A program made the position numbers and the translations under genes. From positions 1 through 21,222 of the IMG/VR virus record IMGVR_UViG_3300007513_001128: a stretch of DNA of 21,222 bases; one strand, written 5' to 3'. Shown here one piece after another: positions 6,114-11,124 of the stretch (position 1 is the stretch's first letter; every line of letters starts with the position of its first letter). This DNA is from a virus. Below the pieces are notes generated by a model. That model was not told the origin of the DNA. It did no database searches and saw only the letters and a program-made list of their open reading frames with translations.

Positions 6114-6743
6114 ATGGCTTATTACCTAGGTAGAGATGTCTCAGTCGCCATTACCACAGAGGACGCTGATTACGGAGTAGAAGTAAATGGTGTCACTAAA
6201 GGAACTTTCGCGGATGAAGCTGGAACCGCTAATACAGTATTTGCTGGACCACTTCTTGCGCAGAACGGTAGTTCAGTATTTGGTACACAAGCAGATGGAG
6301 CAGGAACTGATTATTCTAATGAAGTTTCGGACTTAACTGGAGTGGACCTTGGGATTGGTGTAACAGACGAAGATATAACATATATAGGACAACGTTCAGT
6401 CCTTAAAGCAGAAATTAAGAAAGAAACAACAGTGTCACTCACAAGAAAAAAGAGTAATGCAAGTTGGGACGTTATCTTTAATGATGGCGCACGATGGGGT
6501 ATCACTGATACTTCATTTTACACAGGTCTAGAGGACCCAGCAGTTAGTACGTTTGGTTATAGAGTGCATGTGCAGTTAAAATCAGGTGAGGAAGTTTTAA
6601 CAATTAGAAACGCCTGTATTCAAGCACACAGTGTATCTCTAAATGGTGACGGAACTACAGAAGAAACATTGGAATTTATGTCCTATGTTGACCCAGTAAT
6701 TGGAACAGCATCTAACGTTACTCCAACGGCGAGTGGACTATAG
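6114..6743 (+). CDS. Major tail (tube) protein, copy 1
   Basis: This 209-aa protein is a paralog of the next gene. Shared blocks are MAYYLGRDV at the start, a central DLTGVDL...DEDITY..GQRSVLKAE..KKETTVSLTRKKS, then GARWG, FGYRV.VQL..GE, and GDGTTEET.EF near the end. Size, beta-rich character, tandem copies and location before the chaperone pair and the tape measure gene point to the tube-forming major tail protein. It has a private promoter and leader hairpin and a GGAG site 7 bases before the ATG, fitting high expression. The N-terminal 70 residues differ most from copy 2. The family call is by position and pattern; no database match was available. Confidence 0.7.
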   Translation: MAYYLGRDVSVAITTEDADYGVEVNGVTKGTFADEAGTANTVFAGPLLAQNGSSVFGTQADGAGTDYSNEVSDLTGVDLGIGVTDEDITYIGQRSVLKAEIKKETTVSLTRKKSNASWDVIFNDGARWGITDTSFYTGLEDPAVSTFGYRVHVQLKSGEEVLTIRNACIQAHSVSLNGDGTTEETLEFMSYVDPVIGTASNVTPTASGL

Positions 6744-6754
6744 GGAGATAAAAT

Positions 6755-7417
6755 ATGGCATATTATTTAGGAAGAGATGTAAAAGTTATGATTACTACAG
6801 AGAGCACTATACGTGGTGTAAAACTTGGTAGTAGCAACACACTAGAAATGACAGCTGATTTAGCAGCAGCTAATTTTGCAAATGAGATGACAACAGACGG
6901 TGCAGGAACAACTTACGCATTAACAGATTTAACTGGTGTTGATTTAAGTATTGGTACAGTCGATGAAGACATTACCTATGTTGGACAACGTTCGGTATTA
7001 AAAGCAGAAGTTAAGAAAGAAACAACTGTTTCACTTACAAGAAAAAAGAGTGACATGGTGTGGGATATTGTATTCAATGGTAACGTAGAAGACGGAAATG
7101 AGTTCGTTGACGGAACACACAGCCATGGCGCAAGATGGGGTCTATCAGATGATTCAACTGGTGCAGTTAAAATTTCAAACGGATTATTAGCACCTAAAGA
7201 CCACACTAACGGAACTAAATGTACATTTGGTTACAGAGTGTATGTACAATTAGCTACAGGGGAAACTGTAAGTCTTCCAAATTGTCAAATAACAGGACAC
7301 ACAGTTACGCTTAATGCAGACGGAACAACCGAGGAAACAATGGAATTTATATCTCACGTTACTCCTCTAATAAACACCGCTATAGATGTAACAGCAACTG
7401 ATTTTAGTTCAGTATAA
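6755..7417 (+). CDS. Major tail (tube) protein, copy 2
   Basis: This 220-aa paralog of the preceding protein is aligned along nearly its whole length. It differs by about 15 extra residues between the FN and GARWG motifs (NVEDGNEFVDGTHSH) and by a segment after GARWG. Even the start region is duplicated: GGAGATAAAA precedes both ATGs, and both reading frames start MAYYLGRDV. Third-base differences across the conserved core (6369-6455 against 6964-7051) show the duplication is not very recent. The two proteins may co-assemble into one tube, or one may form a special ring at the neck or tip. It reads through from the upstream promoter, with no terminator seen in the 11-base gap. Confidence 0.7.
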   Translation: MAYYLGRDVKVMITTESTIRGVKLGSSNTLEMTADLAAANFANEMTTDGAGTTYALTDLTGVDLSIGTVDEDITYVGQRSVLKAEVKKETTVSLTRKKSDMVWDIVFNGNVEDGNEFVDGTHSHGARWGLSDDSTGAVKISNGLLAPKDHTNGTKCTFGYRVYVQLATGETVSLPNCQITGHTVTLNADGTTEETMEFISHVTPLINTAIDVTATDFSSV

Positions 7418-7419
7418 AT

Positions 7420-7596
7420 ATGGCTAAGAAAGACAAAAAGGTTATGAAAGTAGAAATAGAGGAAGAGGTTCTTGAAGAAGAGCCTGTTCCTGAACCTACT
7501 CCAGTAGCCCCGCAATTAGATTATAAGGTGGTTATGACACCAAGAGGAGCTATGAAAAGATACTCTGACGGTACTATGACCCCTCATACAGAATAA
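7420..7596 (+). CDS. Small Pro/Glu-rich protein (58 aa)
   Basis: A 58-codon frame starts with ATG 2 bases after the tail gene stop and ends in TAA at 7594-7596. It reads MAKKDKKVMK, then an acidic and Pro-rich stretch (EEEVLEEEPVPEPTPVAP, residues 15-31), then a compact basic end (YKVVMTPRGAMKRYSDGTMT). It fills almost the whole gap between the tail tube and chaperone genes and has codon use like its neighbours, so it is probably real. I do not recognise a family. A tail-assembly accessory or a tube-binding peptide would fit the position, but this is inference. No clear ribosome binding site precedes it, so expression may rely on coupling to the tube gene. Confidence 0.6.
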   Translation: MAKKDKKVMKVEIEEEVLEEEPVPEPTPVAPQLDYKVVMTPRGAMKRYSDGTMTPHTE

Positions 7597-7610
7597 AGGA
7601 GAAGAAAAAA

Positions 7611-7973
7611 ATGGATGAAACGCAAACCGAGTTTTGGACGTTAGAAGAACTAACAGCCCTTACAGATACGGTACAAAGTAAAGAAATAGACTATCAAGGA
7701 AAAAAGATAAAAGTTCAATGGATGGAACTTTCAGAACTTGAAGAACCAAAGAAAATCATACCAGACGAAAATATGGATGAAGATTCAAAAAATGAGTTCT
7801 TTCAAAATTTGGCTAAGGAAAGAGTTACAAGAATGATAAACAAGGCTAATGAAAAAAATCCAGAAGGAACTTTTTTAACAGACGAAGTCTGGGATAAATT
7901 ACCAACAACTATAAAATGGACTATTTCAGGTTCGATATTACAAACAAACGCTGGTGATTCTGAAAATTTTTAG
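7611..7973 (+). CDS. Tail assembly chaperone, short form (gpG-like)
   Basis: The 120-aa product is acidic and soluble, starting MDETQTEFWTLEEL, with a likely small beta part (IDYQGKKIKVQWMELSELEE) and helices after it. The gene lies directly between the tail tube genes and the tape measure gene. In long-tailed phages that place holds the chaperone that binds the tape measure protein before tube assembly, as with lambda gpG. A GGAG site (7598-7601) lies 9 bases before the ATG. Its last codons, GAA AAT TTT TAG, form a slippery site, so a share of ribosomes should shift into the next frame instead of stopping. Assignment rests on position and this recoding signal more than on sequence motifs. 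Confidence 0.75.
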   Translation: MDETQTEFWTLEELTALTDTVQSKEIDYQGKKIKVQWMELSELEEPKKIIPDENMDEDSKNEFFQNLAKERVTRMINKANEKNPEGTFLTDEVWDKLPTTIKWTISGSILQTNAGDSENF

Positions 7974-8278
7974 AATGGATGGGTGAGTCCCCCATCCCAG
8001 TTTATGTTTATTTGCCCCTAATGAAAGATTTAGGAATGTCATGGAATGATATAAAGAGCACACCTAGAAAGGAGTTAGATGGACTTCTTTATGCACTATC
8101 TAACTATAATGTAATACATCGCTTTGATGGTTACGATGAAAGTGATATAAGTGAAATGGCTAAGAACAAACCTTCAGTCCGTAATCAATGGATGAAGACA
8201 ATGGAAACAAAGGAAAAATTTGAAAGAAGAGCAGGAAAAGAAAAGGAGAAAAAAACATTTAAAGGATTAATTAAATAA
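7611..8278 (+). CDS. Tail assembly chaperone, -1 frameshift fusion (gpGT-like)
   Basis: If ribosomes slip back one base after TTT (7968-7970), translation continues TTA GAA TGG ATG GGT, joining ...DSENF to LEWMGESPIP. The fused product would be 222 aa: 120 from the first frame, three linking residues (LEW) and all 99 of the second frame. In lambda and many long-tailed phages the minor fusion form is needed with the major short form, and the extension contacts tail tube subunits. The reading frames here are related by exactly -1, and the join leaves a smooth helical sequence. The shift frequency cannot be judged from sequence. Confidence 0.75.
7964..7997 (+). promoter_or_regulatory. -1 programmed ribosomal frameshift signal
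   Basis: The heptamer A AAT TTT (7964-7970) has the X XXY YYZ form in the correct register, just before the TAG stop (7971-7973). After a 6-base spacer, GGATGGG (7977-7983) pairs fully with CCCATCC (7991-7997) around a 7-base loop, giving a GC-rich 7-bp stem at the usual distance for stimulating -1 slippage. All three elements and the frame relation agree. Confidence 0.8.
7979..8278 (+). CDS. Tail assembly chaperone extension frame (gpT-like)
   Basis: The 99 residues from ATG 7979 begin MGESPIPVYVYLPLMKDLGM and go on with SWNDIKSTPRKELDGLLYAL, typical helical chaperone-extension sequence, then end in a highly charged Lys/Glu tail (KFERRAGKEKEKKTF). No ribosome binding site precedes this ATG, which lies 5 bases past the previous stop and inside the base of the frameshift stem-loop. 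The frame is therefore more likely translated by the -1 shift than on its own. Its stop overlaps the tape measure start (TAATG, 8276-8280), coupling the chaperone to its client. Confidence 0.75.
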   Translation: MGESPIPVYVYLPLMKDLGMSWNDIKSTPRKELDGLLYALSNYNVIHRFDGYDESDISEMAKNKPSVRNQWMKTMETKEKFERRAGKEKEKKTFKGLIK

Positions 8279-11124
8279 TGCCATCAGTACCCGGTATCGC
8301 ATATAGCATTGAGTTCTTTGCAGGACGAAGGTCTAGAGACCAAGCTATCAGTACCGTTAAACAAACGGCAGAAACTGTTTTAGGTATAGCTAATAGAAAT
8401 GCTAAGAAGGCACGCGAAGTTAGACAAAAAGAACATGAAAAATCCTTACAAGATTTACGCCAATCATCTGAAGACGCTGAGAAGGAAAGAGTAGAAGGTG
8501 TAAAAAAAGCTTCTGAACAGGCTGCAAAAGCTTCAGCTAAAGCTGTAGAACCGTTATCTGATAAGGTACTCGAGAGGACATTAGATACCTCAGATATTGA
8601 AGCATATGGTAAAGCTGTAAAGAAACAAACAGATATAGCTACAAAAGCATATCAGAAATATGTTGATAGAGCTTCAAAATTAGATATTAAAGTTGGTAAA
8701 AGCGCTAAAACATGGGCTAAGCCCGGACAAGGTAGAAAAGGAGCTATTAAAGCCTTTGGTGAAGATGGCGAGGGTATGACCCGTAATAGGGAAAGAGCTA
8801 TTAATTTAACTAAGAAATTAATTCAAGAGATAAAGGAAGAGATAAAGGTAAAACAAAAGTTAGGGATAGAAGATGAAGACTTAAACTTAACGTTAGAAGA
8901 ATATGAAAGACAATTAAAAGACCAGATTAACTTACAGTCTGATATTATCGAAATGGAGAAAAAAGAAGCTAGTATTAAACGTAAAAATGCTCAAGCTGAA
9001 AAGGAACTTAATAGGAAGCAGGAGAAGGAAGATAAGGAGGAGGCTGAACGACAAAGAGAACTAAATAGGTTGATGAGGGAATATGCTCAACACGTAGAAG
9101 ACGCAGCGAATAGGATAAAAGGGACACTAAAGAACGCCTTTGTTGTAGGAACGGCCGCAGCAGCAGCATTCTTTTATAAATTAAACGGCGTTGTCCAAGA
9201 ATTCTCTGCTTTTGAAAATGAGATTATTAACGCTCAATCTATATGGCAAGTTTCAAATGAACAATTATTCGCATTAAGTGACCAAGTTATACAGTTTGGA
9301 TTACAATATGGTATATCCATGCAAGATGCAGCTCAAGGTCTTTATCAATATGCATCGGCAGGTGTTGACGCTAATGATGCTATGGAGATGTTAACACATA
9401 CTATGACTTTAGCTATGGCTGTTCAAGGAGACCACGCTACTTTAGCTAAACTAACCACACAGATTATTAAAGGTTATGGTATGGCGTTTACTGAAGCCCA
9501 GAATATCACTGATAAATTAGCACACGCTATTAATTTGTCTTTAATTGAATGGGATGACTTAGCAAGCTCTGTTAAGTTCGCTTTACCCTTCTTTACAGCT
9601 ACAAATCAAAGTTTAGACACCTTATTAGGTGCTTTATCTGTCTTGACAGATAGAGCTTTAGAAGCAGGTATTGCAGGTCGTGGTTTAAGACAGGGTCTAG
9701 CAGAGTTTGCTGAAGGTGCTATGGATAGTTCAGCCAGATTCAGAGAGATGGGTATAGAAATTCTCAATGCTGAAGGCCAAATGAGACCATTGACAGATAT
9801 AGCAATGCAATATAAGAATCATATGGATGAAACCGGAGACTCTATGGAAGTTATGGTTTCTTTGATGGAAGATTTAAACATACGTGGTGCTACCGCGTTT
9901 ATGCACTTGGTGGATGGTGCTGAAGAATTTCAACAAGCTACTTTGGATATAGCAGGTTCAAGTGGAGAAGCTATGGAAATGGCTGACATTATGAATCAGA
10001 GTTTAGAGAAAACTATGATTAGAGTAAAGACCGCTATGTTAGCTCCACTTTTTTTATCCGATGAGATGGTAGAAATAAATGGACATATGAATACTTTTAG
10101 TGCTCATTTACATAATATAGCAGAATTATTTTTAGATATATTTGTTACTCAATTAGAAGACGGAACTTATCAGTTGACAGCCGCTGGAAAAACTTTACAA
10201 GAAACTGTAATAGTAGCGTTGGAAGAATTTTATTTCTTATTAGTAGATGTAAAAGGTATATGGGAGGATTTATCAGCAGGAGGTGCTGATTTAGCTTCTA
10301 TATTAAAGGCATTTATGGCCCCCTTACGTCTTGTTACTAAATTAATAAATATTTTTGGCGACGGGTTTATAGAAGCAGTAATATTATGGAAGTTGATGAA
10401 TCAACTTATACCAATTAATTCTGCGGTAATGTTGGTTAATATTCAATTGCAGATGGCTAGTGTTCTACAGAGTAAGGACCTTCAGGAAAACACCCAACGA
10501 TTAGCTAAAACAATGCAAGGAATGACAACAGTATATTGGAAAGTGGCAGCAGCTCAGATGGGAGTTCAGGCTGGTTTGTTAGGTATGATGATTTTGTCTC
10601 AAAAGATGCCCGAACACGCAAGACTATGGGGTCAACTTGCAGGTATGATAATGGGTGCTGTTCTCGCTATGAACGCATGGAAGACTTTACAATCTATTGG
10701 TTGGCTTAATCCATGGGCAGCGGCAGGAATCATTATTGCGACCTCAGCAATACTAATGGGAGAATATAATAAATGGATGTCTGATTTAATGAAACCAGTA
10801 GAGATTGATAATTCTGAATTATACACAAATCTACCACTTGCAGAGGGTGGTGGAAGCACGGCTTCTACAGATTATGGAGTGAGAGCATTCGATACAGGTG
10901 GATTTATATATGCCGATACTGGTTTAGCAGCAGGTCCAAGTCACCGTATGGTAATGGTAGAACCCGGTGAAAGGGTACTATCCAGAGGTGAAACAAGTAT
11001 GGGTGGAGGCATAACTTTAAATATAGGCGATGTCTATGCTAATGATGGAACTGACTTTGCAGAGAAAGTAGCAGAGGCTTTACCATTAGCTTTAAGGAAT
11101 ATAGATGATGTGGGAGGAATATAA
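8278..11124 (+). CDS. Tail tape measure protein
   Basis: This 948-aa protein has a highly charged coiled-coil N-terminal third (about residues 25-285). A short hydrophobic stretch follows (about 286-300, FVVGTAAAAAFF). A TP901-1-type core lies at about 305-650, recognisable from FSAFENEIINAQ, ALSDQVIQFGLQYGISMQDA and LYQYASAGVDANDAMEML. Hydrophobic helices lie at about 785-801 and 811-828 (GQLAGMIMGAVLAM; AAAGIIIATSAILMG), and the C-terminus has the usual VEPGERVLSRGE followed by GGG and NIGDVYAND. The protein sets tail length and is ejected with DNA. At about 0.15 nm per residue its length predicts a tail near 140 nm. It is coupled to the chaperone frame by a TAATG overlap. Confidence 0.9.
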   Translation: MPSVPGIAYSIEFFAGRRSRDQAISTVKQTAETVLGIANRNAKKAREVRQKEHEKSLQDLRQSSEDAEKERVEGVKKASEQAAKASAKAVEPLSDKVLERTLDTSDIEAYGKAVKKQTDIATKAYQKYVDRASKLDIKVGKSAKTWAKPGQGRKGAIKAFGEDGEGMTRNRERAINLTKKLIQEIKEEIKVKQKLGIEDEDLNLTLEEYERQLKDQINLQSDIIEMEKKEASIKRKNAQAEKELNRKQEKEDKEEAERQRELNRLMREYAQHVEDAANRIKGTLKNAFVVGTAAAAAFFYKLNGVVQEFSAFENEIINAQSIWQVSNEQLFALSDQVIQFGLQYGISMQDAAQGLYQYASAGVDANDAMEMLTHTMTLAMAVQGDHATLAKLTTQIIKGYGMAFTEAQNITDKLAHAINLSLIEWDDLASSVKFALPFFTATNQSLDTLLGALSVLTDRALEAGIAGRGLRQGLAEFAEGAMDSSARFREMGIEILNAEGQMRPLTDIAMQYKNHMDETGDSMEVMVSLMEDLNIRGATAFMHLVDGAEEFQQATLDIAGSSGEAMEMADIMNQSLEKTMIRVKTAMLAPLFLSDEMVEINGHMNTFSAHLHNIAELFLDIFVTQLEDGTYQLTAAGKTLQETVIVALEEFYFLLVDVKGIWEDLSAGGADLASILKAFMAPLRLVTKLINIFGDGFIEAVILWKLMNQLIPINSAVMLVNIQLQMASVLQSKDLQENTQRLAKTMQGMTTVYWKVAAAQMGVQAGLLGMMILSQKMPEHARLWGQLAGMIMGAVLAMNAWKTLQSIGWLNPWAAAGIIIATSAILMGEYNKWMSDLMKPVEIDNSELYTNLPLAEGGGSTASTDYGVRAFDTGGFIYADTGLAAGPSHRMVMVEPGERVLSRGETSMGGGITLNIGDVYANDGTDFAEKVAEALPLALRNIDDVGGI

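Follow-up and report, generated by a model that had tools for sequence, protein, structure and literature searches.

A programmed -1 ribosomal frameshift of the lambda G/GT type very probably joins two short reading frames, TAC1 (ORF1) and TAC2 (ORF2), into one tail assembly chaperone in a tailed virus from IMG/VR. This is the best reading of a 21,222-base virus record, the whole of which we analyzed and call the window (Table 1), and of 81 related loci. ORF1 ends in the codons GAA AAT TTT TAG. The first-pass annotation, made on the window's letters, had placed an A_AAT_TTT heptamer in register right before this stop, followed by a 6-base spacer, a perfect 7-bp stem-loop and a downstream frame in -1. 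The heptamer was found at exactly 7964–7970, the 6-nt spacer occupies 7971–7976, the stem has 7 bp and is mismatch-free, and ORF2 (7970–8278) was confirmed to be in -1. Its first ATG, at 7979, lies 5 bases past the TAG.

Table 1. Coordinates of the shift site and neighboring genes in the window.
Feature	Position	Strand	Remarks
Tube-like gene, copy 1	6114–6743	+	by position
Tube-like gene, copy 2	6755–7417	+	by position
Shine-Dalgarno (SD) sequence AAAGGAG	7595–7601		before ORF1's ATG
ORF1 = TAC1, short tail assembly chaperone	7611–7973	+	gpG-like by position; 120 aa, ends DSENF*
SD-like GGTGAT	7953–7958	+	upstream of heptamer; possible second stimulator (putative function)
Slippery heptamer A_AAT_TTT (-1)	7964–7970	+	register correct
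ORF2 = TAC2	7970–8278	+	in -1; position suggests gpT-like; 102 codons counted from shift
ORF1 stop TAG	7971–7973	+	abuts heptamer
Stem-loop 5' arm GGATGGG	7977–7983	+	
Stem-loop 3' arm CCCATCC	7991–7997	+	
Tail tape measure protein	8278–11124	+	PF10145 (PhageMin_Tail) E 5e-25; PHROG tape measure E 1e-43

A heptamer by itself says little, because the window's 16 genes (6775 codon positions) hold 50 in-frame X_XXY_YYZ heptamers. Only one of these 50, that at 7964, has a perfect 7-bp stem with at least 4 G/C starting 4–10 nt downstream, a definition chosen once the feature was known; stems of this description follow 21 of the 21,222 window positions. When 40 nt were folded, the window's sequence had a z of -2.3, with 5 of 200 dinucleotide shuffles equally stable; over 90 nt the z was -1.4 (17 of 200). 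Against synonymous-codon shuffles the stem was not significant (z -0.64, 51 of 200). Taken singly, the window's stem is moderate evidence, and conservation among relatives is the stronger argument.

Searches with ORF1, the tube-like protein and the tape measure protein yielded three contigs. Two are near-identical to the window, and the one of them that spans the shift site (L002 and L022, the same contig) has the same sequence there. The third, L004, is distant and syntenic (tube-like protein 45%, TAC2 45%, TAC1 50%), with ORF2 in -1 and G_GAT_TTT at the matching place. A profile of the neighboring 338-aa protein added two loci in which the region is present (L010 and L011), and TAC2 profiles found 35 and 80 loci, a union of 81 IMG/VR loci that makes 82 records with the window. 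Grouped at 85% identity of the joined protein, these form 47 clusters. The records are related, and therefore counts over them are not independent.

TAC2 lies in -1 relative to TAC1 in all 82 records and in +1 in none, and ORF1's stop falls 0–4 codons past the site in every record. Relatives with an intact single frame, which the first-pass annotation had named as evidence that would refute a frameshift, number 0 of 82; no record shows a fusion, since the open stretch of TAC2's frame reaches back no more than 136 nt from TAC1's stop. The site sits in a homopolymer-rich stretch, where a sequencing or assembly error might have broken a single ORF in two, but the same -1 arrangement recurs in 82 of 82 records, many of them strongly divergent and none fused, and the near-identical L002/L022 reads the same at the site. 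Chance, placing a heptamer and a hairpin between unrelated neighboring genes, could draw on the abundance of canonical heptamers (50 in the window's genes), yet frame, site and structure are conserved and only 1 of the 50 heptamers carries the stem. Given the comparison of relatives, both explanations appear very unlikely, to the point that we give each of them next to no weight.

As the first-pass annotation had anticipated, relatives keep the heptamer along with the -1 frame: a shift-prone heptamer stands at the corresponding place in 81 of 82 records. The tally is A_AAT_TTT in 60 records, A_AAT_TTG in 1, G_GAT_TTT in 8, C_CCA_AAC in 3 and A_AGT_TTT in 9, with one deviant record, L052 (A_GTT_TTT); by cluster it is 31, 1, 7, 3 and 4, with 1 deviant. 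The strict X_XXY_YYZ pattern holds in 64 records and a relaxed one in 17, so that 18 of 82 fall outside the strict rule (G_GAT_TTT 8, A_AGT_TTT 9, and L052). Sites were looked up from a list of these heptamers, which L052 alone of the 47 clusters did not fit. At L052:2184–2205, the sole record without an accepted heptamer has five T and has no ATG at codon 4 past the shift either; it would reflect a base error or another kind of slip, involving one tRNA.

The base ahead of the P-site codon is uniform within each of these classes: A in 31 of 31 AAT TTT clusters, G in 7 of 7 GAT TTT, C in 3 of 3 CCA AAC and A in 4 of 4 AGT TTT. Because this base is the third position of a preceding codon that varies (GAA 23, GCA 5 and GTA 4 before AAT; TCG 6 and GCG 1 before GAT; GAC 2 and AAC 1 before CCA), its conservation is not readily explained by protein constraint. 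Of 154 Asn-Phe pairs at other places in these loci, 18 use A_AAT_TTT, and canonical heptamers in frame are found at 0.69% of codons; a p-value of 1e-29 obtained with these counts ignores relatedness and was set aside. UUU is the A-site codon in 77 of 82 records, leaving L052 and the TTG and AAC sites uncounted. The window's A4T5 run (GAAAATTTTTAG) could also suggest transcriptional slippage, by which a base would be inserted or deleted in some mRNAs. However, C_CCA_AAC and G_GAT_TTT relatives have the same arrangement without long runs, known transcriptional slippage requires longer runs, and a downstream structure would not be expected; we see only a faint chance that this explanation is correct.

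Across the 47 clusters, the mean folding energy of 45-nt segments reached its minimum, -10.7 kcal/mol, for segments starting +2 to +6 after the heptamer; it was -10.1 at offset 0 and between -2.9 and -7.8 at the other coarse offsets. Compared with synonymous-codon shuffles of the same sequence, 43 of 47 clusters were more stable than the shuffle mean (mean z -1.7), and z lay above 0 in 4. Many relatives of the TGATG type, in which stop and start overlap, have weak structures, and stems differ from lineage to lineage. A few compensatory stem changes, which the first-pass annotation had proposed looking for, were seen among the relatives. Between L050 and L100 an A-U pair within the stem is replaced by G-C, a change both synonymous and compensatory; between L049 and L055 C-G is replaced by G-C. 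The covariation count for the L050/L100 pair corresponded to 249 of 500 shuffles, a control that is uninformative with two sequences.

Pairing in a long stem common to the relatives, GGATG...CATCC, was scored in 10 representatives chosen by hand from the 47 clusters, after an eleventh, L048, had been dropped as identical to L053 in this region; the structure was taken from L058, one of the 10. At its true position 82% of cells were paired, compared with 39–50% when the structure was slid, and the covariation score of 0.167 was equaled in 1 of 500 shuffles. Two-sided pair changes were as many in 59 of 500 shuffles, and one of the slid placements gave more cells with two-sided changes than the true position (10 vs 8). 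This stem alone is no proof, because it derives from L058, five of its 14 pairs are invariant, and GGATG and CATCC encode conserved residues.

Upstream of the heptamer lies a stretch able to pair with the anti-SD sequence; in the window the duplex is -7.8 kcal/mol for the 10-mer at 7950–7959. In a scan of the last 200 nt upstream of the site, averaged over the 47 clusters, pairing with the 3' end of 16S rRNA was strongest for 10-mers starting 14–20 nt before the heptamer. The mean best value there was -5.8, whereas six control positions gave -2.0 to -3.9; relative to synonymous shuffles the signal had a mean z of -0.78, and z was negative in 37 of 47 clusters. Weak SD-like pairing tends to accompany strong stems (Spearman -0.28, p 0.054, 47 clusters; -0.28, p 0.097, 36; -0.42, p 0.034, 26; -0.46, p 0.047, 19). 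The relation is weak and suggestive only, and one of the six control positions likewise gave -0.29.

How ORF2 begins bears directly on the choice between frameshifting and restarting. The duplex before the window's ORF2 ATG is -0.7 kcal/mol, which confirms the first-pass statement that ORF2 has no ribosome binding site of its own. Anti-SD pairing before TAC1's ATG averaged -6.9 kcal/mol and was below -5 in 33 of 42 clusters; 5 of 47 clusters had no usable ATG by script, and some of the starts picked may be internal. Before ORF2's first ATG the mean was -1.2, with 0 of 43 below -5 and the strongest value, -5.0, in L055. In 39 of 47 clusters codon 4 past the shift is an ATG, frequently within TGATG, and another start codon precedes the site in frame in 4 clusters; these leave room for an extra coupled or independent start. 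Ribosomes might thus finish TAC1 and reinitiate at the nearby ATG, making a separate TAC2 with no frameshift, and both the frequent stop-start overlap and the 5-base distance in the window would suit such a restart. It leaves unexplained, however, the conserved heptamers and the base preceding them, as well as a structure peak placed relative to the heptamer. The SD-like stretch, about 20 nt before the window's ATG, is too distant to serve it, and the codon-4 ATG is absent from 8 of 47 clusters. Four of 47 have no ATG before a conserved PLM motif: L025 and L100 offer GTG only, and L027 and L050 none of ATG, GTG and TTG. A shift is therefore the mechanism that is able to serve nearly all clusters. 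Reinitiation in place of frameshifting is unlikely, with a small chance of being right, and it could coexist with frameshifting as the source of an additional minor product.

The conserved frame, site and structure thus support the first-pass proposal of a frameshift joining two chaperone frames; the slippage would run as follows, and the chaperone role is assigned by position. Most ribosomes would stop at the TAG at 7971 and release the 120-aa TAC1. A minority, with tRNA-Asn on AAT and tRNA-Phe on TTT, would be detained by the downstream stem-loop, perhaps with help from an SD-like contact on the upstream side and from the stop codon in front. Both tRNAs would then re-pair one base further back, with AAA and TTT, and reading would go on through TTA GAA TGG ATG to give a 222-aa TAC1-TAC2 fusion with the junction peptide DSENF-LEWMGESPIPVYVYLPLMK. 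The sequences show the frame relation, the site and the structure with their conservation, the gene order, and the lack of a ribosome binding site for ORF2; slippage itself, its efficiency, the ratio of products and the part taken by each stimulator are predicted. In this scheme the balance between short and fused chaperone would serve to load tube protein onto the tape measure protein. A role in tail assembly, a set chaperone ratio and an influence on tail length are predicted by analogy.

The neighborhood of TAC1 and TAC2 is the lambda G/GT arrangement. In every record with over 800 nt of room (79 of 79; 79 of 82 overall) the gene after TAC2 is a tape measure gene, and a tube-like homologue precedes TAC1 in 78 of 82. 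The first-pass placement of the pair between tube and tape measure genes held on the tape measure side, where Pfam PhageMin_Tail matched at E 5e-25; "tube" is a designation by position, the tube-like genes having no family match over the cut-off in Pfam or PHROG. The two tube-like genes of the window (6114–6743 and 6755–7417) are related and in tandem, and two copies are also present in L008, L010 and L011. Between the second copy and the chaperone, at 7420–7596, is a small acidic ORF of 58 aa whose first 83 bases are 87% identical to L004, where the neighboring tube-like protein and TAC1 stand at 45–50%. A collagen-like protein with glycine- and lysine-rich repeats (KGIKGIKGIHGDKG) is encoded at 629–2107.

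The chaperone role is assigned by position, because TAC1 and TAC2 have no confident family or fold match. An alignment of 29 TAC1 homologues gave no convincing Pfam or PHROG match across its members; one member touched the PHROG "tail assembly chaperone" at E 0.075. The top Pfam match for TAC1, DNA_ligase_OB_2 (best E 4e-4, 3 of 29 members), was taken as chance. TAC2 had no confident match when its members were compared with PHROGs and the window's TAC2 with Pfam. PDB sequence profiles likewise gave no confident match. AlphaFold2 predicts an all-helical TAC2 (pLDDT 88) and a TAC1 made of a helix, two strands and helices (pLDDT 86). Foldseek returned no match at E ≤ 0.001 for either model against BFVD or for the TAC1 model against PDB. 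Chaperone ORFs have low similarity between phages, according to PMC5009743.

An archaeal host is somewhat more likely than not, on mixed evidence that comes largely from a 67-kb relative (L015, L016, L017). Its helicase-like protein matched 53 phage records, all haloarchaeal viruses; 22 of 40 records from the group carry this helicase family, and of 14 control genomes Methanocaldococcus was the sole carrier. G005, the one near-identical relative tested, has no helicase, as fragments may not. All 10 matches of the portal were haloarchaeal, and weak (E 2e-4 to 4e-3). The terminase TerL had its best match in Halogranum tailed virus 1 (HGTV-1), with only 2 of 12 records archaeal by name. PolB of the 67-kb relative matched 38 records, none archaeal by name; its class II RNR found bacterial phages among the matches listed and also lies near two Nomurabacteria bins (47–49%); and its nuclease matched 24 records, 15 from Campylobacter and 6 haloarchaeal. 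The window's own tape measure matched 96 records, and the organisms were bacterial among the matches listed. For the capsid protein of the 67-kb relative there was no match.

PCNA and TFB were found in 0 of 40 records, and MCM and thermosome in 0 of 22, among records that may be fragments; many archaeal viruses lack genes of these types. A search for AmoC was uninformative, as the controls gave no match, and searching genome contigs with the TAC2 profile gave no provirus. The 67-kb relative also carries PolB, class II RNR and GP88, a PD-(D/E)XK nuclease that matches Cas4 more weakly, and an ATPase matching the PHROG "porphyrin biosynthesis", which we take to be CobS-like, near a VWA protein with a CobT_C match.

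The lambda-type -1 frameshift in the G/GT tail assembly chaperone was reportedly described by Xu et al. in 2004, and the lambda site is G_GGA_AAG. In contrast to lambda, neither TAC1 nor TAC2 could be matched with confidence, by sequence or by fold, to a known chaperone family, the sites here mostly consist of an Asn, Asp or Ser codon followed by UUU in the A site, and the stop codon lies 0–4 codons past the site in 82 of 82 records. E. coli dnaX shares the combination of elements, with an A_AAA_AAG site, an SD-like sequence about 10 nt before it and a stem-loop after it, but is a cellular gene. SD-like stimulators of frameshifting are mentioned in PMC8211752. The pea enation mosaic virus site, G_GAU_UUU_UGG_UAG (PMC5009743), has the heptamer of the G_GAT_TTT lineages with a stop codon shortly downstream, although this is a plant RNA virus and the gene is unrelated.

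Closer parallels come from haloarchaeal viruses. The chaperones of HVTV-1 and HCTV-1/2/5 are reported to use -1 and that of HSTV-2 +1 (PMC5009743, PMC8211752), the Hardycor1 chaperone has a -1 site, G GGA AAT (PMC7911831), and HF1-like viruses would need +1 (PMC7230728). HVTV-1, HCTV-1/2/5 and Hardycor1 have in common with the present group that they are tailed viruses with the same gene position and -1 heptamers; the sites differ, those of the present group being chiefly A_AAT_TTT and G_GAT_TTT, while three of its records have C_CCA_AAC. In the Hafunaviridae HRTV-25, HRTV-27 and HSTV-2, a joined chaperone gene lies between tube and tape measure, as here. The portal of the 67-kb relative matches HRTV-25 and HSTV-2, and its helicase matches HRTV-25, HRTV-27 and HSTV-2. 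Profile comparison detected no homology between TAC1 and the proteins of HRTV-25 and HSTV-2. The HRTV-25 and HRTV-27 chaperones (L113:10357–11044 and L115:10064–10904) are annotated with a putative -2 shift, unlike the -1 here. Archaeal viruses may thus use different shifts at one gene pair.

Our search of a paper library with few subscription papers, on chaperone frameshifting in archaeal viruses, found no description of this group's signal, and a search there for AAATTTT with tape measure gave one paper, on a Wolbachia phage hydrolase region and not this signal. The first-pass annotation had regarded the case as notable recoding if the host were archaeal. That view holds only in part: the host may indeed be archaeal, but an archaeal host would not be a first, because frameshifts in archaeal-virus chaperones, including those of haloarchaeal viruses, have already been published. 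What we describe is, from the comparison of sequences, a well-conserved -1 frameshift signal of a type familiar from numerous phages and from some archaeal viruses, in a virus group that is possibly archaeal. Less ordinary are the frequent UUU codon in the A site and a possible exchange between two stimulators.

According to PMC8037382 and PMC8211752, demonstrated archaeal -1 frameshifting amounted as of 2021 to one Saccharolobus gene, and the archaeal-virus cases are predictions. Whatever the host, annotators can treat as one gene a pair of ORFs that might else pass for two independent hypothetical genes. With an archaeal host, the 47 clusters, which differ in heptamer, stem, SD-like element and start codon, would form a comparative set for testing the requirements of archaeal ribosomes. 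We speculate further, and tentatively, with the odds against it, that an archaeal virus group has kept one -1 site, mostly with tRNA-Phe on UUU, while SD-like contact and hairpin are balanced between lineages, the hairpin being weaker where the other is strong. If that is true, archaeal ribosomes would respond to both signals, the SD-like contact and the hairpin, and the group would provide a natural series of tens of sites for testing archaeal -1 frameshifting.
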